Positions 3,188-57,233 of a DNA stretch of 64,000 bases are shown piece after piece. How positions within the stretch are numbered: the first letter of the stretch is position 1; each line of letters starts with the position of its first letter. Source of the stretch: Lentisphaera profundi (GTDB lineage Bacteria > Verrucomicrobiota > Lentisphaeria > Lentisphaerales > Lentisphaeraceae); assembly GCF_028728065.1 (NCBI RefSeq), contig NZ_CP117812.1:992001-1056000 (forward strand), in the 5' to 3' direction. The translations under genes were made by a program, and so were the position numbers. The notes under the pieces are model-generated. The model did not search any database. It was not told the origin of the DNA and saw only the letters and a program-made list of their open reading frames with translations.

Positions 3188-4330
3188 ATGAAATCACTCG
3201 TACTTCAATTTAGTTTCTTACTCTCAATCAACCTTGTTGCCTCGGCACATGATCATACCGAAAGTGTGGCACAGAATCATGCGCAAGTCGTTTACCTTTC
3301 CTATATGGATACTTTGCAAGACGCGCAAAACTTACAAAAACAAATTAATCAATTTTCAGAAAAACCAAGTGAAGCAAGTTTAGAGCAAGCTAAGAAGGCT
3401 TGGTTGCAAAGTCGTGAATCTTATGGTCAGACAGAAGCGTTTCGCTTTTATGATGGTCCCATTGATTTCGCTAATGAGAAAACTGGTGAAGAAGGTCCAG
3501 AAGGAGAACTCAATGCTTGGCCAGTGAATGAAGCATTCATGGATTATGTTAAAGGAGCGCCTACATCAGGGATTATTAATTCCGACAAAGAAATTACTTT
3601 GGAATTGATCAATTCATCTAATATCAAAAATGATGAAGCTGACGTAACGACTGGTTATCACGCCATTGAGTTTTTACTCTGGGGTCAAGATCTAAGTTTA
3701 GAATCTGCAGGAATTCGTCCTGCGAGTGATTATAAAAAAGGTGATAAAGTTAATGAACGCCGTCGTTTATACTTAAACTTAATCACCCAAAAATTAATCA
3801 GTGATCTCCAGTATTTAGTGACTGAATGGACTCCAAAAAAAGATAACTTCCGTAAAAGCTTTGAAAAACAAAGTGATGAAGAAACTTTGAGCTTACTTTT
3901 AACTTCACTCGCTACTCTAAGTGCCTTTGAAATGGGCTCTGAACGTATGGGTACGGCTTTGGATTCAGGTGATCAAGAAGATGAACATTCTTGCTTTAGT
4001 GATAATACTCACAGAGATTTTATCACCAATCAAGTCGGTATGATGAATGTATACTTTGGGAATTACGGATCTTATCACGGTAAAAGCCCCAAAGAAATTT
4101 TGGCGAAAAAAGATGAAAAATTAGCAAACAAAATCACAAAGGCATTGAAAAAAACTGCTGATGCTTTAGTACTTATCCCCGCGCCAATTGATCGTGTATT
4201 AGCCTCTGAAAAAGGAAGTGAAGCAAGAGAGATAATGGAAGCTGCCATAAGCGCCCTTAACGAACAAGCGGAGTTGTTTGTTGAAGCAGGTAAAGTATTA
4301 AAAGTTGATGTTAAAATCATAGCCGAGTAG
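3188..4330 (+). CDS. Imelysin-family periplasmic (iron-regulated) protein
   Basis: 380 residues with a cleavable signal peptide (about 1-20). The imelysin GxHxxE motif is present as GYHAIE at residues 156-161, followed by FLLWGQDLS. This motif is conserved in IrpA/ICMP-type proteins, which act in iron uptake or sensing at the cell envelope. The usual duplicated helical-bundle length is kept. AAAGGA precedes the ATG. It sits between a porin gene and a DUF1111 diheme protein, the partner most often found beside imelysins. No second imelysin or DUF1513 gene follows, so the cluster is a short version. Iron involvement is known for the family; the exact ligand here is unknown. Confidence 0.88.
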   Translation: MKSLVLQFSFLLSINLVASAHDHTESVAQNHAQVVYLSYMDTLQDAQNLQKQINQFSEKPSEASLEQAKKAWLQSRESYGQTEAFRFYDGPIDFANEKTGEEGPEGELNAWPVNEAFMDYVKGAPTSGIINSDKEITLELINSSNIKNDEADVTTGYHAIEFLLWGQDLSLESAGIRPASDYKKGDKVNERRRLYLNLITQKLISDLQYLVTEWTPKKDNFRKSFEKQSDEETLSLLLTSLATLSAFEMGSERMGTALDSGDQEDEHSCFSDNTHRDFITNQVGMMNVYFGNYGSYHGKSPKEILAKKDEKLANKITKALKKTADALVLIPAPIDRVLASEKGSEAREIMEAAISALNEQAELFVEAGKVLKVDVKIIAE

Positions 4331-4337
4331 AAAAAAT

Positions 4338-5684
4338 ATGCGCACTCGATTGACCTTAGTTCTTTTATTGCTATCATGTTTTATTTGGGCTGAAAACTCT
4401 GAAAAACTTGGTGGTGATTTAACTGTATACAAAGAGAGTAAATACTCTTTTGGCATGAGTGCGCCAAATATTCCCATCAAAAATTTACGCGATTTTGCCT
4501 TTGGCAATCGCATGTTTAACACGAATTGGGTCACGGCACCTAGCAGTGTTCCCAGTTTAGACGGTTTAGGACCACTCTTTAATAGAGTCGCTTGTTCTCA
4601 ATGTCATTTGCGCGATGGTCGTGGTCGTGCCCCTCATGATTCAAATGAAATGATGAACTCAATGCTGGTGCGGATGAGTGCGATCAATGAAAAGGGCGAA
4701 GTAATTGATCATCCTATTTATGGTGGCCAATTGAGTGATCGCGCGATTCAAGATTTAAAAGCAGAAGCTCGCGTGCGAGTTTCTTGGCATGAAAGCCAAG
4801 GGCAATTTGCGGATGGCCAAACTTATTCTTTGCGTAAACCGCAATACAAATTCGAGTTCTTTCGGGGCGATGCGGGTGAATTTTTATTTTCACCTCGGGT
4901 AACGCCTGCAGTCTATGGCCTTGGTCTTTTAGAAGCCTTAGATGAAAAAAGTATTTTAACTCATGCAGACCCGGAAGATCAGGATGGTGACGGCATTTCA
5001 GGTAAAGCTAATTACGTATGGGATGCAGTTTCTAAGAGTACCCAGTTGGGACGCTTTGGCCTAAAAGCGAATGCTCCCAACCTCTTGCATCAAAATACGG
5101 GAGCCGCTAATGGTGATATAGGCTTGACCAGTAAATATTTTCCGAAGAAGAATCACCAAGTCATACATAAAGATTTAGAAAATCATAAAAGAGCAGGTTT
5201 CGACCTATCCGAAGAGCAAGCTCGACGCTTAACTTTATATATCCAGAGCTTAGGTGTTCCCGTTCGTAGAAATATGGATGATGAACAAGCAAAGCAGGGG
5301 GAAAAGTTTTTTAAGCAAATTAATTGTCAGTCATGCCATGTGGAATCTTTCACAACTGGGAAAGATCATGAATTAGAGTTTTTGCGTAATCAGCAAATTT
5401 TTCCTTACACAGATCTCTTACTCCATGATATGGGAGCTGACTTAGCCGATAATCGTCCTGATGGCCTAGCTAATGGTTTCGAGTGGCGTACACCACCTCT
5501 TTGGGGCTTGGGTTTGCACAAGATGGTGAATGGCAATGATTACTTTCTTCACGATGGCCGCGCTCGTACAATTGAAGAAGCAATTCTATGGCATGGTGGC
5601 GAAGCAGAAGCCAGTCGTGATGCGTATAAAAAGCTCAATAAAGAAGAGCGTGAATCTTTAATGAAATTCCTTAAGTCACTGTAG
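4338..5684 (+). CDS. Diheme oxidoreductase of the DUF1111 (DHOR) family
   Basis: 448 residues with an N-terminal signal peptide (1-18). There are two c-type heme sites: CSQCH at residues 86-90 and CQSCH at 330-334. Between them is a calcium-site-like DQDGDGISG (about 214-222), and near the C-terminus the segment WRTPPLWGLGLHKMVNG is typical of this family. Members are periplasmic cytochromes related to MauG/cytochrome c peroxidases and are nearly always coupled with imelysins. A role in periplasmic iron redox chemistry is assumed for such clusters but is not proven. Seven bases separate it from the imelysin stop, and an imperfect terminator follows at 5834. Confidence 0.88.
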   Translation: MRTRLTLVLLLLSCFIWAENSEKLGGDLTVYKESKYSFGMSAPNIPIKNLRDFAFGNRMFNTNWVTAPSSVPSLDGLGPLFNRVACSQCHLRDGRGRAPHDSNEMMNSMLVRMSAINEKGEVIDHPIYGGQLSDRAIQDLKAEARVRVSWHESQGQFADGQTYSLRKPQYKFEFFRGDAGEFLFSPRVTPAVYGLGLLEALDEKSILTHADPEDQDGDGISGKANYVWDAVSKSTQLGRFGLKANAPNLLHQNTGAANGDIGLTSKYFPKKNHQVIHKDLENHKRAGFDLSEEQARRLTLYIQSLGVPVRRNMDDEQAKQGEKFFKQINCQSCHVESFTTGKDHELEFLRNQQIFPYTDLLLHDMGADLADNRPDGLANGFEWRTPPLWGLGLHKMVNGNDYFLHDGRARTIEEAILWHGGEAEASRDAYKKLNKEERESLMKFLKSL

Positions 5685-5833
5685 AATCACTAGCTGAATA
5701 CTTATGGCTATGAGCATGCTTACTAAGTTAAATCGTACGTTACTTACAGATTTATAATGAGAAGTGATTGCTTAAACTACTTCAGTAGATATAAGCTGAT
5801 TACCCCTATGGAACTAATCAAATCATAAAAATA

Positions 5834-5860
5834 GGCCAGTCCTTTAAGAACTGACCTTTT
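5834..5860. terminator. Imperfect hairpin between convergent genes
   Basis: GGCCAGT and ACTGACC pair around a short loop with one C-A mismatch, flanked by TTTT on the right and a run of A on the left. It lies between the convergent diheme oxidoreductase and the giant cytochrome gene, so it could stop transcription from both sides. Confidence 0.55.
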
Positions 5861-5877: not shown

Positions 5878-8800
5878 TTACTTCATTGAGTGTAAATATT
5901 CAATGATAGAAGTGAACTCATGGAGGTTGAGGTTAAAGACTAAGCCCGGGGGCATTTGAGACATCTTTAATATCGTTTTCCCAGTAATGTATTCTTTAGT
6001 GACTTTCTCATAATGGCCCGCGGCATTCATGAGGTAGTAGTAGGTATTATCTTCATCCACTAAGAAACCCATGTGAGGATTGGACTGCTTTTTGGATGTC
6101 AGTTGGTAAGTGGGGAATCCTTGGGCAATGGCTGCCGCGGGGTTTAAGACCGATTCAATAAGGAAATCACGTTGAAATTGACTTCCCGCTGTTCCCATAT
6201 AAGGACCTTTTTGTAATGCTGCATTATTAACAGCGTGGCAGGCGATACAGCCTTGCTTATTAAAGAGCTTAGAACCTAAGACACTATCGCCCTTATTGCT
6301 CATGGCGTATTTCGCGGCACCCTCTAGGCCTGCGGTGGTAAGTGGCATAGATTTTTTAGCATCTTTTGCGATGGTCGCAACATTTTGGTGCATATCTAAA
6401 ACGGCTTTGGCAGCTTTGCGAGTACCGGCGTAATCCCAAGTTAGATTAGCCTGTGCGCGTTTTTTGAATTTTTCATCAAGTAAGTAGATATCCGCAATAG
6501 CTTGATAATAACCAGGATTATGGAGACCAATTTCGCCATCAATGATTTTTTGATTAGCGACAATTTTCTCACCAATATTTCTGTAGAAGGCAAAGAAGAT
6601 TTTTTTCCAAGCAAGAGTTGCGGCTTGATCATCAACTTCGTTAGCCGTTTTAGCTAAGTTTTCAAAATCGTTCTTACTTTTAAGGGGTGCAGTCCAATAA
6701 TCGAGGAGCATTGCATCAATCTGTGTACGTGAATTATCTTTTTTAGATAGTGAGAGAGATTCTGTTTGCCATTTTGATAGACTCGTAATCAAAGCTTTGC
6801 TTGAAAGAGTTCTAAGTTCTGTGGCGGCTATAATTTTCTTTTCATTGACGACTCTTAGCTTAGGGGCCTTTCTATTTGCGCCCTTTTTTCTTTTGAAGGT
6901 AATGGCGCCTGGATCAAACCACTCTTGAAATTCGGCAAGTTTTTTAGCTGCTTTGAAACGGGTTTTCCAGGCTTTGTTTGTGTCCATTGCCGTGAGTTGT
7001 AATGTTTTGATATGCTGTTGACTAGGAACGCTTGTGTCTAAGGCAGCAAAAAGTATATCCACGCCTTTTAGTTGGAGTTTAGTTGTGTCAATTTTATTGA
7101 GAGTTATGGCCTCAATGACATCGAGTTGTGATTCTGCTTTGAACTTCGTGAAGTTAACTTCAATTGCCTTTTCAATGGGCTGAGTATATTCCCATGTTTT
7201 TGTAGCAAAATAAGGACCTTCATCATAAGGGCGAGTTCCCCACCAATCAACTAAATTCCAATCAGCTTCTTTATGACTGAGACGCGCCAAAATATCGAGA
7301 ATAATTAAACGGCTCTGATCATTCCATTGATCACTGGCGAGTTCTAGTATGAGGGCATCAATGAGTTTCGGATTGTGAATTGTTTTTAAACCGTAAGAGA
7401 GAACTTTCTGTGTTTTTAAATCACCTGATTTGAAACGTGAAAGATAAGCCTGCCATGCTTGGTCATGGCTTTGTCCTAGGCTTGATAATGTACGTGAAGC
7501 CATGTGAGGCAGTGCCATGGTTCCAAGTTGACCAACGCTATCAACTTTCCATGATTGAATAGCCATATCAATAAGTTGCTCAATGGATTTCGGAGAAAAT
7601 TTATTTAATCTACGCAAGCTAATAGCGGCTTGTAAACGAACTTTTGGATTAGGGTCCTTTAAATATTCTGCGATTAAATCAGGTGAAACATTGGCCATTT
7701 GAGTTTTTCTGTCAGTCAAGGCTTTTAAGGCCATTTCGCGCATGCTACCGTCAGCTAAAAGATTTTGGCAAAGGCTATGGCTCTTTTCTCCAATGGCTTG
7801 TTTAAGTGTAAATAAGGCGGCTGTACGAGAATTGATGGGTAGCTTTTTATTCAGTGCTGCATTGCTGAGTAATTGACTCGCTTGTTTGCTGATGGGCTTT
7901 TGCAAGAGGAACTGCTGAGCTTGTAGTCGAATAGAGGCGCTGGGGCCAATAAGGTGTTTTACCAAATCATTGTCATTAGCTGATTTTAGATCAGGTACAG
8001 CAGGGGCCTTATAGCCTTTTAATTTAGCTTTGAAGATACGACTCACAGGTTTTTCTTGACCCGCATAAGCAAATTTACCGCCTAACCAATCAGAGAAGTA
8101 AAGGTTTGATTCTCCATCCACATCAAGGTCAGTGGCACGCGTTAGAGTAGTAAATACATTTTGCTTGATTTTATACGTGGCGTCCTTTGCTTCCATCTCA
8201 AATGAAAAGACTTTTCCAGAAGTCCAATCACAAGTATATAATTTATTGTTGACATCTTTTGGAAAACCGGGTTCATCTAGGAATAAAACTCCCATGCCTG
8301 AGCCACCACCATAATCGCCGAGTGAGGCAATATGTTCATCGGGAAAATTTTGGTAGAGTCGAGGATAACCAAAGTCAGATTCGGGAACTTGATGATGAAC
8401 GCGGAGGTTCCAGCCTTTGCCATCATTAGTATTGTCACGAGTGAAGAGCTCTAAAGTCGGTGAAATTGCGACATCAAATTGATTTCTTGTATTATAGACA
8501 TACATCTCTAATTCACTGCCATCAGGGCGGACTCGGGCTACACCGCCACCGTGATAACGAAGGACTTTGCCATCAGTTCCTTTAGAATCTTTAAGGCCGA
8601 AGTCGCCAACGGCGATATAAAGCCAGCCATCGATGCCCATACGTACACCATTTGTTGTATGATCGGCACCACGTGAGTGTTCAATGCCCGCACCAAAGCC
8701 ATCGGCAAGAAGGGTTCTTTTGTCAGCTATACCATCACCATCGGTATCTTTGAAAGAAGTGAGAAAGGGTGGGTGAAGTAGGTAATAGGTACCTGCAACA

Positions 8801-44069: not shown

Positions 44070-46328
44070 GTGAAAGAAGAAGAAATTAAAACTTTGGTAG
44101 AATGTCCCACGATAAAAGTTGAACGTGCAGACCTAAACTTATCGACAACTGTGATTCGAAAAGGTCACAGTATTGTACCAAAGCTAAGTACTCAAACAGC
44201 CGATATTATCGATACACAGATATTTCAAGAACAGCAAAGTTCTACTAGCATTAATTTAAGTGAAGAAAGCATAAGTGAAGAAAGCTTAGAAAAACATGTC
44301 AATATTGATCTTGTTTACGACTTAGGAGAAGCTTTTGCGGAAGGGGCACAAGGTTCTATTCATTCGGCTAAGGATATACATTTAAAAAGAATTGTTGCCG
44401 TGAAAGCTCTGAAAGAACATTCGATGAGGCGTTCTTTTATTAACGAAGCGCAATTAACGGCTCAACTGGACCATCCCGCTATTATTCCGATCTATAGTCT
44501 TAATTCAGATGAGAATAGCGGCATTTATTTTTCAATGAAGAAGGTCAATGGGGTCACGCTTAACCAGTACCTTACTAAAGTTTGTGATCATTATTACTTC
44601 CATGGCTTTAATTTAAAAAATGAAGCCAGCTCTTTAGTGACTCGCTTGGAACATTTCATAAAGATTTGCGAAGCGGTTCAGTATGCCCATTCAAAAGCCG
44701 TAGTTCACCGTGATTTAAAGCCTGATAATATCATGATTGGTGAGTCACGAGAAGTTTATGTTATGGACTGGGGTATTGCTTACTGCATGGATGGTCCCGA
44801 GAACCAAAAACCGGAAGTTATAGAGAGAACTAAAAAAATCATTTGTGGCTCACCGGGTTATATCGATCCTCAAATGGTGTGTAATAATACTCCAGCGGAA
44901 TGTACTGATATTTACTCTTTAGGCATGATTCTCCATGAAATGTGTACTTTGCAAAGAGGCTTTACGGGATTTAGTACCAATGAACTTTTTGAACAAGCCG
45001 TGAAAGGTGATTTTCCTGAAATAAAGCATCGTTTTAGTAGTGGAGTAATATCAGCGGAACTAAAAGCTATTATTGAAAAAGCACGTGCTCCAGAACTTAT
45101 CTTTCGCTACAATTCCGTAGAAGAACTTTGCGAAGATGTAAGACGTTTGTTACGCAATGATGAAGTATCGAGTTTGCCCGATAAACCCCTAAGAAAAGTC
45201 ATGCGATGGGCACAGAAAAACCCTCATAAAATAACGGTAATAATGATCTCGCTAATCATGAGTTTATCTAGTTTGGTTATTTATAGTTTATTCAAACAAA
45301 ATCAGACGATCGTTGAAGCTCGTATACGTGAAAATACTTTTGCTCAACTACAGAGTCATGTTGCAGAAAAAGCTCATTTGATTGATAGCCAAATGACTAA
45401 GTTAGAACAGTTATTAAGTCGTGTAAGTGCAAGTTTATTAAGTATGCCCACGGTTCGTGATGAGACGCTTAAACTCTATTCATCAAATGATTTTTCTAAG
45501 CCCGAGACAAAACCTCCTGGGACCGTTTATTCCAGTATATTTGGCAAAGAAGTAAATGTTAATACCATGGTGTATAAGCTCGCTCCAGAAGTCAAATTTA
45601 ATGAAGTTGAAAATATATTAGATTACTTATTCTCTTTTAAAGATGACTTTGTGAAGGTCATGTTGAAAAGTAAGCTAAATAGCCCGAGCCATTTGAGTAG
45701 AGAGCAAATCAATCCAGAGCAGATACTGATGAGTCCTCTACCTGCACGCTGGCTTTACTGCGGTTTGGAGAACGGCGTTTTTGTCTCATTTCCAGGAAAA
45801 GGTGGTTACCCAGCAGAATATGACCACCGTAATCGCCCTTGGTATAAAGATGCGAAAAATCGAAAGGGTGTTTACTGGGCGAAACCTTATTACGATATTA
45901 ATGGTCTAGGAATAGTGCTTCCATGTACAATTGGACTCTACAATAAAGAAAATGAATTTAGTGGCGTTTTGGCTCTTGATGTAACATTAGATTTTCTAGC
46001 CAAAAAGTTGATGTTAAATGATGATGAAAAACGAATTGTAGGATTACAAGAATCAACAATTTTGAATCCGGATGGCGAGATTATCATTACTAGTTCACTC
46101 TTGAAAAGTAAGGAGAAAAATACGGAGTTCAATAATCAAGCTATTGAACGTCGGCCTTATCATAATGATTTAGTATTAAAAGCAGTACAAGCCAATAAAA
46201 ACACAATCATCTATGTGAGAGAGGGCGGGCAAAAAGTTATTTATGCACTGAACCGTATTCCCGCTTTAAATTGGTTTTATATAGAAAAGTACGACGCTCA
46301 AAAAATACTTAAAAAGAAGGTCAATTAG
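44070..46328 (+). CDS. Transmembrane Ser/Thr kinase with C-terminal Cache sensor domain
   Basis: 752 residues, GTG start with AGGTG just upstream. An 80-residue acidic/Ser-rich N-terminal tail precedes the kinase domain (~82-365): Gly loop GEAFAEGAQGS, Lys112 in IVAVKALK, HRDLKPDN at 213-220, DWG at 233-235 and SPGYIDPQ. Unlike the kinase at 41275 it keeps all catalytic residues. One transmembrane helix (~389-408) is followed by a double-Cache ectodomain (~410-745) with YDHRNRPWYKDAKNRKGVYW and GVLALDVTLDFLAKKL. Cache domains sense small periplasmic ligands. A second transmembrane helix is not evident, so the C-terminus stays outside. It is a ligand-gated kinase; the ligand is unknown. Confidence 0.9.
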   Translation: MKEEEIKTLVECPTIKVERADLNLSTTVIRKGHSIVPKLSTQTADIIDTQIFQEQQSSTSINLSEESISEESLEKHVNIDLVYDLGEAFAEGAQGSIHSAKDIHLKRIVAVKALKEHSMRRSFINEAQLTAQLDHPAIIPIYSLNSDENSGIYFSMKKVNGVTLNQYLTKVCDHYYFHGFNLKNEASSLVTRLEHFIKICEAVQYAHSKAVVHRDLKPDNIMIGESREVYVMDWGIAYCMDGPENQKPEVIERTKKIICGSPGYIDPQMVCNNTPAECTDIYSLGMILHEMCTLQRGFTGFSTNELFEQAVKGDFPEIKHRFSSGVISAELKAIIEKARAPELIFRYNSVEELCEDVRRLLRNDEVSSLPDKPLRKVMRWAQKNPHKITVIMISLIMSLSSLVIYSLFKQNQTIVEARIRENTFAQLQSHVAEKAHLIDSQMTKLEQLLSRVSASLLSMPTVRDETLKLYSSNDFSKPETKPPGTVYSSIFGKEVNVNTMVYKLAPEVKFNEVENILDYLFSFKDDFVKVMLKSKLNSPSHLSREQINPEQILMSPLPARWLYCGLENGVFVSFPGKGGYPAEYDHRNRPWYKDAKNRKGVYWAKPYYDINGLGIVLPCTIGLYNKENEFSGVLALDVTLDFLAKKLMLNDDEKRIVGLQESTILNPDGEIIITSSLLKSKEKNTEFNNQAIERRPYHNDLVLKAVQANKNTIIYVREGGQKVIYALNRIPALNWFYIEKYDAQKILKKKVN

Positions 46329-48439: not shown

Positions 48440-50983
48440 ATGTTTTTTAAAGCTTTGCGCAATGATGCTTTAAGGTTACTTTGCATAAGTTTATTTATAT
48501 CTAATAAAAAGTCCTCTATGCCTTTCTTTAATAATTTCATTTTCCCAAAATCATTTGTGTTGATGCTAATGGTTTTTGTGAATGTTCTTTATTCAGTAGA
48601 GATGCGAAGTGGTGTGGATGCTCAAGGACTTATTCACGTTCGTGTTTGGGGCTTAGTTCAAGGTCCCGGAAGTACTTCCGCAGAACGTGCCGATTGGCGA
48701 GTTTTAAAAGCCTTTGAAAAGGCTTATCCGCATATTCGCCTGCACAATGCGGCTGGAATTAATTTACCCGGTGTAGGCAATGAAAATGATGTGGGCCCTT
48801 TATTAGCGATATCAGGTGGAATAGCCCCGGATATTCTCTACGTCAATTTCAGAAAGTCAGCTTCCTATATAGATAATGAATTTCTCTATCCCTTAGATGA
48901 ATATATTGCAGAGTACGCAAAGCTTCATGGCGAATCTAGTCTAAAAGATCTTATCCACCCAGCCCTCAATAAAGTAGTGACTCGTCTAGGCCCAGTCCAA
49001 GGCGATCGTCAAATGAAGACTTGGATGATTCCCGCAGAGCCCTTAGTGATGACCATGATTTACCGCAAAGATCTATTTGCAAGAAGTGGTCTAGATCCCA
49101 ATAAAGCTCCCGAAAACTGGACTCAAATGTATGCGGCATGTGAGCAGATAGTGGCTTCGGATCCTTCAAGTTATGGCGTCTTAGCGACGGCAAGAGGGGG
49201 GACATCATGGAATTTCATGCCTTACTTGAGTAGTAGTGGAACACAAGTTTTGACTGAAGATGCACAAGGGGAATGGAAAGCTAGTTTTGCTCGAAAAGAA
49301 GCCGTTTCTGCTTTGGAGTTTTATGCCCGTTTACATGCAGGGCTGCGCAAAGATGGGAAAACGAGAGGCTTTGCTACTTCGAATAAAAACCTTTTAGACG
49401 AAGGGAAAATCGCCATGGCCATGACCTACCTTGGTGGAGATGAAATGGCAAAGGTTGATACTTCAGGAGCCCAATGGGGTTTTGCTCCCGTACCAAAAGG
49501 CCCCACGGGAATTAGTAGTGCTGAAATTAATGCACGTATGTGGGGGATTTTTCGAGGTCAAAAAGATAAACGCGTTCGTGATGCAGCTTTTGAATGGTTA
49601 GCTTACCGCAAATCGAAAGCAGCGGTTAAAATCCGTGTGGATACTTTTATTGAGGCCAATGAAATTTCGGCTATTAATCCCAATCTATTAGATCGTTTAG
49701 GAGAAGAATACAAAAAGTACGAAATTTTTATTAACCAAGATCTGAAAAAACTCTATAAAGATTTAATTACGACTGCCAAGCCAGAGCCCTATGGAACGAA
49801 TTGTGATTTAGTTTACGATTATTTAGATAAGCCGGTACAGGCGGCTATTTTATGGGCTAGAGAGGGGAATCTCGAAAATCAATCAGAGCCAGTCATTCAC
49901 AAAACTCTATTTGCCTTTTTAAGTGAGGGACAAAAAGAACTTGAACGGGAGATGCTCAAAGAATTGCCCGAAAAAGAACGAAAAAAGAGGAATAGGGTGG
50001 CGATGATCGTTACGATTAGCCTATTTACTATTTTCTTATTCACCTTTTATAAAGTCCTAAAAATCCTTTCTCCTGTGGGGCAACGCAATAATTCTTGGCA
50101 AATTAAGAAGTATTGGAAAGCTTATGTCATCTTGCTACCTGCGCTAGCAATCATATGTCTTTGGCAGTATTACCCCTTGTTGAGAGGCGCACTTATGGCC
50201 TTTCAAGATTATAAGATCTCAATTCCCATTGTTAATTGGGTAGGTTTTGATAATTTTGCCGATGTGCTTTATGATAAAAACTTTTGGTACTCATTGTGGT
50301 TAACTTTTTATTATTCCTTTTTAGTGATTAGTTTTACTTGGTTGCCACCCTTGTTACTGGCAATTATGCTGGATGAAATCCCCAAGTTTTCAGTATTTTT
50401 TCGAGTTCTCTATTACTTACCTGCATTAATTTCCGGCTTAGTCGTCATTTTTCTTTGGAAGCAATTTTTTGATCCCAGTCCTCAGGGTTTATTTAATCAA
50501 GTCCTGGCTTATGTGCATATTGGGCAACAGTATTGGTTTGAAGATCCTCACTTAGCGATGTTTTGCCTGATTATTCCTCTTGCATGGGCAAGTTTGGGGC
50601 CTGGGTGTTTGATATATTTAGCTGCCTTGAAAGGAGTGGCACCCGACTTGTATGAAGCGGCTGAAATTGATGGTGCTAATTATTGGCAAAAAATACGTTT
50701 TGTTCTCGTACCCAAACTTTGGCCCTTGCTAATTATTACCCTTATTGGTCAAATGATCATAAGTTTCAATGCCGCTGAAAACGTTTTAGCAATGACTGGT
50801 GGTGGTCCTAATGGAGCGACCAATGTCACGGGCTTATTGATCTTCAAAAAAGCCTTCGTGTATACTGAATTTGGAACGGCTACAGCAATGGCCTGGATCA
50901 TGAGTTTATTTCTAATTGGTTTCACCGTTTATCAATTAAAAATTCTTTCCAATCTCGAATTTAAAACCACGGGCAATGACTAA
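48440..50983 (+). CDS. Fused ABC sugar-type solute-binding protein and MalF-type permease
   Basis: 847 residues from ATG 48440; Met27 (48518) begins a better signal peptide (MPFFNNFIFPKSFVLMLMVF), and neither start has a strong ribosome site. Residues ~50-470 form a family-1 extracellular solute-binding domain (VRVWGLVQGPGS; GIAPDILYVNFRKSASYID). One helix (~515-535) then leads to a six-helix permease (~550-845) with the EAA loop EAAEIDGANYWQKIRFVLVP. Binding protein and permease are normally separate genes; here they are one chain. The next gene is the second permease, overlapping by one base (TAATG). The ATPase is not in the window and is probably shared. Oligosaccharide import is likely. 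Confidence 0.9.
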   Translation: MFFKALRNDALRLLCISLFISNKKSSMPFFNNFIFPKSFVLMLMVFVNVLYSVEMRSGVDAQGLIHVRVWGLVQGPGSTSAERADWRVLKAFEKAYPHIRLHNAAGINLPGVGNENDVGPLLAISGGIAPDILYVNFRKSASYIDNEFLYPLDEYIAEYAKLHGESSLKDLIHPALNKVVTRLGPVQGDRQMKTWMIPAEPLVMTMIYRKDLFARSGLDPNKAPENWTQMYAACEQIVASDPSSYGVLATARGGTSWNFMPYLSSSGTQVLTEDAQGEWKASFARKEAVSALEFYARLHAGLRKDGKTRGFATSNKNLLDEGKIAMAMTYLGGDEMAKVDTSGAQWGFAPVPKGPTGISSAEINARMWGIFRGQKDKRVRDAAFEWLAYRKSKAAVKIRVDTFIEANEISAINPNLLDRLGEEYKKYEIFINQDLKKLYKDLITTAKPEPYGTNCDLVYDYLDKPVQAAILWAREGNLENQSEPVIHKTLFAFLSEGQKELEREMLKELPEKERKKRNRVAMIVTISLFTIFLFTFYKVLKILSPVGQRNNSWQIKKYWKAYVILLPALAIICLWQYYPLLRGALMAFQDYKISIPIVNWVGFDNFADVLYDKNFWYSLWLTFYYSFLVISFTWLPPLLLAIMLDEIPKFSVFFRVLYYLPALISGLVVIFLWKQFFDPSPQGLFNQVLAYVHIGQQYWFEDPHLAMFCLIIPLAWASLGPGCLIYLAALKGVAPDLYEAAEIDGANYWQKIRFVLVPKLWPLLIITLIGQMIISFNAAENVLAMTGGGPNGATNVTGLLIFKKAFVYTEFGTATAMAWIMSLFLIGFTVYQLKILSNLEFKTTGND

Positions 50984-52857
50984 TGCCTTTATTAAATGAA
51001 GTGTCGCAAAAATCGACTAAGGGACGAGGACTCATATTAGCTTTCTATTTCTTTTTAGCTTTAGGTGCCTTAAGCATGATAGTGCCTTTCTTACTGATGT
51101 TTTCAGGTTCGATGAAAGGACAGTATAACTCAAGTAGGCTCAATCTCGTTCCTCAGTATTTATATGATGACTTAGAATTGTATCGTACTTGGTGCGAAAG
51201 TAAATACACTAAAATTGACAATTATAATGCGTCGAATGAAATTCCTTATATGAGTTTTTCTGAGTTAGAAGTTCTAGCTGCGGAAAAAGAAAAAGAACTT
51301 TTAAAACAGTATAAATCATATCTGAATGAGAATGTAGGGAGTATCTATAATTCGCGCTTAGGTCATGTGAATGCGAGTAATAAAAATCTTCCGGAACTGG
51401 GATTGGAATTCATTCGACATTTGGATGATAATTTTGGCGGACTCAATAAGACTAATCAAGCCTTGAAACTCAATATGCCTAACTGGCAATCACTTGCTGG
51501 CGCCGTTATCCAACAGAATTTTTTTAGTAAAAGCTTTACTGCAAATGATTCTGCCTTAATGACAGAATTGATCGAATTTAAGCAGCAAGCTAATCAAGCG
51601 GATTTATTTTACCCTAGTGTAGATGGTCAGTTTCGCAGTCAAATGATTTTGCCTTTTACGGGGACGGACTTAGAAGAGATCAGTAAAATGACGGGCTTAG
51701 AAATCAAGGCAATTCACGAGCTCCATTTATCTCATACACAAGGCAATGATTGGTACAATAAACAACGATCAAGTTTTATTAGGCAATTTTTAAATCCTCG
51801 ATATATCGACTTGAAAAAGACAGCAACACAAAAAATAAATTATCAGGATTTCATAAAAAATAATTTTCTCGGAGATATCAATACAGCACAAAAAGTTTTC
51901 CCGCATCTCAGTTCTTTTGAAGAAATAGAATTGATTACGCAAATGCCTAATAATTCTCAAGAAGCCGTGCTCTATGGTGCATATATAGAAAGATCTGCAG
52001 ACTTTGATTCATTGCTTTTGCGAGGTCCGCAAAGAGGCTTTCAAGGATTTTTATTAGATGAGTATGGTGATTTAAAAAGTATTAATAAGGCGCTCAAGAG
52101 GGATTTTAATTCTATTCACGAAATTTATATTCCACAATCATCGCTTGATTATAACTATGTCTTAGAGAATAAAACTAAGTTGCGTTGGGATTTGGCAAGT
52201 ATTAATATTCGTTTCGTATTTAACTACCTCACCCAGCAAGGTCGTGCCGCTTGGGTGACTTTGGTTTTTTGTCTTTTAACCATCATTAGTTCACTAATCG
52301 TCAACCCTTTAGCTGCTTACGCCTTAAGTCGCTACCAGCTGCCTAGTACTTACAAAATTTTAATGTTTTTTATGGCAACCATGGCTTTCCCCGTCGCGGT
52401 TACTCAAATCCCTTCTTTTCTTTTGCTGAAAGACTTGGGCTTACTGAATACTTTTTGGGCTTTGGTATTGCCGACAATGGCGAATGGTTATTCGATTTTC
52501 ATTCTTAAAGGCTTTTTTGATTCTCTGCCCAAGGAACTCTATGAAGCTGCTTCTATTGATGGCGCAGGGGAGTTTCGCATGTTTTGGCAGATTACGCTGA
52601 ATTTATCTAAGCCCGTACTAGCTTTAATTGCCTTAAACAGTTTTACTGCGGCTTACGGAAACTTTATGTATGCCTTACTGATTTGCCAGGATGAATCTAT
52701 GTGGACCATAATGGTTTATCTCTTTAAGTTGCAGACAGAAGCCTCGCAGGCCGTGATATATGCGAGTTTAGTCGTTGCAGGAATACCCACTCTGATTATA
52801 TTTTTATCTTGTCAGAAAGTCATCATGAAGGGGATTGTGATTCCTTCTGAAAAGTGA
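50983..52857 (+). CDS. MalG-type ABC permease with a ~370-residue extra domain between helix 1 and the rest
   Basis: 624 residues, about 340 longer than MalG. TM1 is at ~15-40 (LILAFYFFLALGALSMIVPF). Residues ~45-415 are a soluble, mainly helical, exported insert of no known family (NLVPQYLYDDLELYRTWCES; LLLRGPQRGFQGFLLDEYGD). Then the permease core resumes with AAWVTLVFCLLTIISSLIVN and the EAA loop EAASIDGAGEFRMFWQITLN. The insert would face the periplasm and may dock the fused binding domain of the partner. Translationally coupled to it through TAATG. Confidence 0.9.
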   Translation: MPLLNEVSQKSTKGRGLILAFYFFLALGALSMIVPFLLMFSGSMKGQYNSSRLNLVPQYLYDDLELYRTWCESKYTKIDNYNASNEIPYMSFSELEVLAAEKEKELLKQYKSYLNENVGSIYNSRLGHVNASNKNLPELGLEFIRHLDDNFGGLNKTNQALKLNMPNWQSLAGAVIQQNFFSKSFTANDSALMTELIEFKQQANQADLFYPSVDGQFRSQMILPFTGTDLEEISKMTGLEIKAIHELHLSHTQGNDWYNKQRSSFIRQFLNPRYIDLKKTATQKINYQDFIKNNFLGDINTAQKVFPHLSSFEEIELITQMPNNSQEAVLYGAYIERSADFDSLLLRGPQRGFQGFLLDEYGDLKSINKALKRDFNSIHEIYIPQSSLDYNYVLENKTKLRWDLASINIRFVFNYLTQQGRAAWVTLVFCLLTIISSLIVNPLAAYALSRYQLPSTYKILMFFMATMAFPVAVTQIPSFLLLKDLGLLNTFWALVLPTMANGYSIFILKGFFDSLPKELYEAASIDGAGEFRMFWQITLNLSKPVLALIALNSFTAAYGNFMYALLICQDESMWTIMVYLFKLQTEASQAVIYASLVVAGIPTLIIFLSCQKVIMKGIVIPSEK

Positions 52858-56158: not shown

Positions 56159-56177
56159 TTTACAAAAGGACACGTTG

Positions 56178-57233
56178 ATGGGTTTAATGGGAATACTAGG
56201 ATTGGGGAATGATGAAAAATCAAAAATAGCCAAGTTTGAAAAAGGCGTTTTTCCTTGCTCTAAGTGCAACAAAAAACTTCCTATTGCAGAATACGCTCCC
56301 TTAAACATGATTAATTGTCCCAAGTGTGATGATTTAAATTTAGTTCCTTTGAAGCTTGATCAGTGGTGGGTTTATAAACCTATTGGTAGCGGAGGAATGG
56401 GCGCAGTTTATCAAGCTCGACATATAGAAGATCCCGACGTTAAAGGCGCCGTGAAAGTCCTCCAAGCAAATGAAGTCCGAGAAAATATTATTGAACTACT
56501 TTTAGCTGAAGCTAAAATCGGCCACAAGTTTGGCGACCATGAAAATATGGCTCAAGTTTTTGCCTATGGTAAAGATAATGGCAATGCTTATATGGTCATG
56601 GAAATGGTCGACGGAATACGCTTGGACCAGATAATGGACATAGCAGGGGGCTTCGATTTAGAGCTTTCTTTGTATTATGCTTTGGATATTCTTATTGGCC
56701 TTCAACACATGTATGAAGCAGGCTACTTATACCGTGACTTAAAACCCGAAAATATTATTATAGCTCCAGATAACAAGGTTGTTCTTGTAGACTATGGTCT
56801 CTGTATGGAACTCATGGAAGCCTGGCAGTACGATGGTGACGATATATTAGGTTCACCACTCTATATGCCTCCAGAGAGAATTAAGGGACAGGGCGAAGAT
56901 ATAAGAGCTGATATGTACTCATTAGGCATGGTGCTTTATCAATTGATTAAAGGTCAGCCCTATTTCAACGCCAAAGATATTATGAATATCGTCAAGAGTC
57001 AGATAAAGAATGTTCGTTTGCAGACAAGTAGTAAAATGTCTGGCATTCCTGAAGATGTTCAAGTTTTTGTCGATACTTTAATTCGTCTTGAACGCGATGA
57101 ACGCTATAACTATTACACAGAAGCTATGCAAGTTTTGGTAGAAATTTTAGGTGGTATGAAGAAAAATAAGAAGACTACTGATCCACGTATTCAGCAAAGA
57201 CGAAAAGCACTTTCGAAATTAAAAATTAATTAG
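56178..57233 (+). CDS. Soluble Ser/Thr protein kinase with N-terminal zinc ribbon
   Basis: 351 residues from the ATG at 56178; AAGGA lies eight bases upstream. An N-terminal zinc ribbon has CSKC (27-30) and CPKC (47-50). The kinase domain follows (~63-330): GSGGMG at 70-75, Lys93 in GAVKVLQ, YRDLKPEN at 185-192, DYG at 205-207 and SPLYMPPERIKG. No transmembrane helix is present, so it acts in the cytoplasm. HRD is YRD but the catalytic Asp and Lys remain. Downstream, seven bases away, is a MazG-like gene. Confidence 0.9.
   Translation: MGLMGILGLGNDEKSKIAKFEKGVFPCSKCNKKLPIAEYAPLNMINCPKCDDLNLVPLKLDQWWVYKPIGSGGMGAVYQARHIEDPDVKGAVKVLQANEVRENIIELLLAEAKIGHKFGDHENMAQVFAYGKDNGNAYMVMEMVDGIRLDQIMDIAGGFDLELSLYYALDILIGLQHMYEAGYLYRDLKPENIIIAPDNKVVLVDYGLCMELMEAWQYDGDDILGSPLYMPPERIKGQGEDIRADMYSLGMVLYQLIKGQPYFNAKDIMNIVKSQIKNVRLQTSSKMSGIPEDVQVFVDTLIRLERDERYNYYTEAMQVLVEILGGMKKNKKTTDPRIQQRRKALSKLKIN

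Follow-up and report, generated by a model that had tools for sequence, protein, structure and literature searches.

How does an ABC importer operate when its solute-binding domain is fused to one of its two permeases, the other permease carries a large insertion and the locus holds no ATPase gene? The question is raised by a gene pair of Lentisphaera profundi, located in a stretch of 64,000 nucleotides (hereafter the window; C2:992001-1056000 of a two-contig genome) between an integrase/MsrA region on one side and a peptide-release-factor-3 gene on the other. The gene order 3' of the pair is identical in L. marina, the closest named relative found, and scanning for promoters and terminators gave chance-level results only. 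Ser/Thr-kinase-like genes also occur on both sides of the region (window 44070-46328 and 56175-57233), the former additionally encoding a transmembrane (TM) segment and what is probably an extracellular sensor part.

Organisation of the gene pair

The first gene joins a binding protein (SBP) and a permease in a single chain, with the following features.

48440..50983, + strand: solute-binding domain, TM helix and MalF/UgpA-type permease in one ORF of 847 aa (P0001; profile matches, hydropathy)
48701..49624, + strand: SBP_bac_1 domain, residues 88-395 (Pfam PF01547, E 1.4e-24, above cut-off)
50003..50059, + strand: TM helix between binding domain and permease, residues about 522-540 (hydropathy; conserved junction alignment A6)
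50105..50944, + strand: MalF/UgpA-type permease core, residues 556-835 (NCBIfam UgpA 5.1e-22, MalF 3.3e-15)
50981..50985, + strand: stop-start overlap TAATG of the SBP-MalF and MalG genes (sequence)

These matches bear out the original prediction that the first chain consists of a solute-binding domain, a helix and a MalF-type permease. The N-terminus is signal-like, and the true start is probably Met27 (position 48518), because the protein would then comprise 821 aa, compared with 820 aa in L. marina, and the signal sequences would match; the two counterparts are 80% identical. The EAA coupling motif of this half is intact (residue 739), and no MalF-P2-like domain was recognised in the MalF part. 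Judging from the topology, the added TM helix would bring the chain back across the membrane to the cytoplasm after the periplasmic binding domain, the position required for a permease of the MalF type, with its N-terminus inside, to follow. The TAATG overlap suggests translational coupling to the second gene, which encodes the features listed below.

50983..52857, + strand: MalG/UgpE-type permease with large insert, 624 aa (P0002; profile matches)
51028..51084, + strand: MalG TM1, residues 16-34 (hydropathy)
51118..52206, + strand: insert in the TM1-TM2 (P1) loop, residues 46-408, 363 aa, an array of GH42-like units (alignment, profile comparison)
52240..52839, + strand: MalG/UgpE-type core, residues 420-619 (NCBIfam UgpE 1.5e-25, MalG 3.5e-18)

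The EAA motif is likewise intact in this half (residue 521), and the protein shares 72% identity with the MalG of L. marina (L039). An insert of about 370 residues between TM1 and the core had been anticipated, in good agreement with the 363 residues found. Since insert-free MalG homologues of Chloroflexi measure 293-295 aa, with a core starting at about residue 89, the net gain brought by the insert amounts to about 320 aa.

Repeat units of the insert

The insert is a tandem array of units of about 60 residues, five in most members of the family. In an alignment of 29 inserts (A4), five successive stretches share the pattern F..FL..KYg.l..lN...gT.y.sF.eI.lP...dW..F, and the five unit profiles are mutually homologous (pairwise hhalign probability 94.5-98.5, column-shuffled units reaching no more than 9.4). 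In the window protein, the units were scored with a model built without Lentisphaera, against a null made up of 200 shuffled sequences and the remaining ORFs of the window, which set 4.8 bits as the score to beat.

51175..51366, + strand: unit R1, residues 65-128 (18.5 bits, above null)
51406..51621, + strand: unit R2, residues 142-213 (10.3 bits, above null)
51628..51813, + strand: unit R3, residues 216-277 (orthologous position; not found by the Lentisphaera-free model)
51838..52008, + strand: unit R4, residues 286-342 (orthologous position; not found by the Lentisphaera-free model)
52033..52194, + strand: unit R5, residues 351-404 (26.5 bits, the strongest unit)

R3 and R4 are too diverged for this model, and their placement follows the orthologues. 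The insert sequences are 15-59% identical, yet the repeat pattern is kept. The number of units varies among homologues, with seven in L104, six to seven in L103 and L106, four recognisable ones in L041 and L042 and fewer in diverged members, down to one.

The insert had been described from the outset as long and helical, which fits its predicted secondary structure. AlphaFold2, run on the insert alone with a six-sequence alignment, yielded a helical model with short strands and moderate confidence (pLDDT 62.9, pTM 0.53), in which R3-R5 lie mostly at pLDDT 70-92, while the model of the full-length MalG was poor (45.5). A Foldseek search with the insert model returned no significant match, the local alignments to beta-amylase reaching a probability of up to 0.84 (E 1.6). 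Structural support is weak.

Glycosidase homology of the units

The insert had been thought to belong to an unknown family, a view that the homolog search overturned. The Pfam GH42 family (PF02449) is matched by 25 of the 29 family inserts (best 5.5e-12) and Pfam GH14 by four; the window insert alone reaches only E 0.55 against Pfam GH42, and the homology rests on the family. Matches of the insert and unit profiles in the PDB are almost all glycosidases, including the GH42 enzymes 9ta3 (8.8e-8) and 1kwg (3.8e-5), beta-amylase 3voc, agarase 4bq4 and related barrels; a direct PDB search with the window insert by itself gave no match.

In each unit, the homology corresponds to one helical segment of about 40-55 residues of GH42-type enzymes, situated after strand 4. 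The stretch matched covers about positions 147-231 of the 376-position Pfam GH42 model, and residues 158-196 of 1kwg (extent about 155-265). This region of 1kwg falls after the acid/base residue Glu141 and before the nucleophile Glu312, so that both catalytic positions lie outside. Profile comparison thus indicates that a single helical segment of a clan-A barrel, GH42 above all, gave rise to the units or has a common ancestor with them.

The significant Pfam GH42 matches might be taken to mean that a catalytically active glycosidase domain has been fused to the permease. Such a function is extremely improbable, and the insert was rejected as an enzyme, because the match is partial and the complete (beta/alpha)8 TIM barrel with both catalytic glutamates that defines GH42 membership is absent.

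Conservation and distribution

The distribution of the architecture was assessed in 388 genomes of GTDB Verrucomicrobiota. The insert profile (A3) matches 139 of these at E <= 0.001, the weak matches possibly including true glycosidases, and is strong (about E <= 1e-10) in 93; the SBP-TM-MalF junction profile (A6) is strong in 127. Both are strong together in 88 genomes, that is, in 88 of the 93 with a strong insert, with a co-occurrence odds ratio of about 115, a value that overstates independence as many of the genomes are related. Furthermore, in the 23 loci that contain the upstream gene, the fusion is a single ORF beside the insert-bearing MalG. A sequencing or assembly artefact is therefore ruled out, as the same architecture is kept in L. 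marina and in dozens of genomes.

Ten genomes with the junction only were checked. Eight of them encode a long MalG (465-641 aa) with a diverged insert, mostly with one or no recognisable unit, at a separate locus, and hence do not constitute clear exceptions. In the remaining two, an insert-bearing MalG occurs at another place in G190, and G316 has ordinary MalG-like matches only. Conversely, the insert-bearing MalGs of L086 and L091 have no adjacent SBP-MalF, the fused gene apparently residing on another contig of each genome. The insert is also carried by three contigs of planctomycete metagenome-assembled genomes (MAGs; L040-L042). In the complete copy on L040, one ORF encodes the SBP with its TM helix and the next one the MalF core, so that the joining point of the pieces is visible. 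No relatives were found in the viral contigs searched, and of the 2,556 plasmid records with a match to the MalG part, none covers 80% of the protein; the insert architecture was not found there.

The strong link between insert and SBP fusion bears on the possibility that the array has no part in transport specificity and acts as a structural spacer or scaffold, one that might contact peptidoglycan or the outer membrane, for instance, and keep the importer close to an outer-membrane channel. Such a role would suit long helical repeats, the sequences of which diverge fast while the pattern is retained; nevertheless, the association with the fusion points to a role together with the tethered binding domain, and we regard a mere spacer as improbable.

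Several variants of the system were noted besides. On contig L040 (1-7541), the importer system is present in tandem, in two copies or more. The planctomycete MalGs of L041 (1649-3640) and L042 (10354-12351) have a further TM-like insertion of about 54 residues inside the core, and the corresponding MalFs have extra hydrophobic segments. In MAG G270, an in-frame TAG (L087 6447-6449) interrupts the SBP-MalF fusion, which is open in other genomes. The genome of the window itself encodes a second SBP-MalF system beside a GH95 gene (L079; G000:C1:1551000-1560000), the fusion of which is broken at about 5880-5950 by an apparent frameshift at a short C run after 'WSYYP'; this may reflect sequencing error, decay or phase variation, and the fusion is intact as one ORF in L099 of the same genus. 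A third CUT1-type system of this genome (L083; G000:C2:26000-35000, 3705-5845) has an unfused SBP and a MalG of 413 aa with an insertion of another kind, some 130-160 residues long and lacking GH42-like units.

A candidate ATPase partner

An adjacent ATPase gene is present neither in the window nor in L. marina, in keeping with the original prediction that the pair depends on a shared one. The genome has 51 ABC ATPase matches, of which only C1:1867067-1868143 exceeds the curated UgpC cut-off (484 bits). This UgpC/MalK-type gene lies on the other contig (C1, the pair being on C2) and is an orphan, no MalF/MalG-type permease adjoining it. The other two Lentisphaera genomes have one above-cut-off UgpC each, and in four relatives (L085, L094, L068 and L078) UgpC/MalK directly follows MalG on its 3' side. 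The single UgpC of the genome, together with the position of UgpC directly after MalG in relatives, supports the use of a shared UgpC/MalK-type ATPase encoded elsewhere, from which the pair would draw its energy.

Substrate and proposed function

Glycosidase genes occur near the loci of several relatives, namely GH43 (L041, L042), GH4 (L090, L095) and GH38 (L096), while a GH95 gene and an acetyl-xylan-esterase-like gene lie near the second system of the window's genome. These neighbours support sugars as the substrate and have no bearing on the size of the glycan; a sugar is thus the likely substrate, whereas the original suggestion that the importer may handle large or insoluble glycans found no direct support. 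Beside the pair itself, no glycosidase gene was found in the window or in L. marina.

Contacts of E. coli MalE with both MalF-P2 and MalG-P1 are reported (Daus et al. 2007, cited in PMC3150292). The pair would encode the membrane components of an oligosaccharide importer of the CUT1 type (MalFGK2/UgpABCE-like), with its solute-binding domain tethered to the MalF half. By analogy with E. coli, the five-unit array in MalG-P1 would most likely be a superstructure on the periplasmic side that docks the tethered binding domain and orients it above the channel, thereby elaborating the role of E. coli MalG-P1; it may also touch the sugar. With no MalF-P2 recognised, an SBP attached to MalF and a much enlarged MalG-P1, a docking platform is the simplest reading of the array. 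A CUT1 importer with an SBP tethered to MalF, a MalG-P1 array that docks it and perhaps contacts the sugar, and a shared ATPase is accordingly the explanation that we favour, with moderate confidence.

The main rival, in line with the idea put forward at the outset, gives the array the primary role of a lectin-like vestibule for binding glycans: its units would hold oligosaccharides near the tethered SBP and feed them in. The units stem from a segment of sugar enzymes that adjoins the active site, their number varies from one recognisable unit to seven in homologues, and several relatives have the glycosidase genes named above. However, the aromatic and charged positions of the glycosidase segment are kept only loosely from unit to unit, the match is to a helical region comprising neither a barrel nor full sugar subsites, and the glycosidase neighbours are absent in the window and in L. 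marina. Binding of glycans as the primary role is rather unlikely.

Alongside the docking platform favoured here, a wider generalisation may be offered tentatively, and with more doubt than conviction: a phylum-wide class of importers in which a non-catalytic array, arisen from a multiplied segment of a glycosidase barrel, serves as a sugar-guiding and SBP-docking domain of MalG, the SBP is fused to MalF and one ATPase serves several systems. Multiplication of a glycosidase segment into an array in a transporter loop would represent a new use of a fold element. Furthermore, how 1:1 tethering alters transport kinetics could be studied in a naturally occurring case, a heterodimeric sugar importer with the SBP attached to one half. 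The design is found across Verrucomicrobiota and in planctomycete MAGs, groups with few studies of glycan uptake, and its components would in most annotations be named merely 'permease' or 'solute-binding protein'.

Comparison with known systems

A search of the open literature found no description of this architecture. Its parts are known, and it is the combination, together with the glycosidase-derived repeat array in MalG-P1, that appears to be undescribed. A carbohydrate-type SBP and two distinct MalF/UgpA- and MalG/UgpE-related permeases with EAA motifs, as expected of CUT1 importers, which transport oligosaccharides or glycerol phosphates, are present. Like E. coli MalFGK2-MalE and UgpABCE, the system has an SBP_bac_1 domain, two BPD_transp_1 permeases with EAA motifs and, as a candidate partner, an available MalK/UgpC-type ATPase. 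In contrast to these, the SBP is covalently attached to MalF via an added TM helix, MalF-P2 is not recognised, MalG-P1 holds the 363-residue repeat array and the ATPase is encoded far away.

Covalent linkage of substrate-binding domains to the transmembrane subunit is known from GlnPQ (PMC8025302), and is a feature shared with GlnPQ and OpuA; here it takes the form of a single ORF conserved across the phylum. GlnPQ is, however, a homodimer for amino acids with N-terminal tandem binding domains, whereas the present system would be a heterodimer with a single sugar-type SBP on one half. Instead of a homodimeric transmembrane subunit with two tethered sites, there are two different permease genes, of which one has a binding domain; therefore, one binding domain per transporter is to be expected. 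Lastly, GH42 beta-galactosidases (1kwg, 9ta3), GH14 enzymes and agarases share one segment with each unit, but here this segment is repeated five times in a permease loop, with neither a barrel nor catalytic residues.
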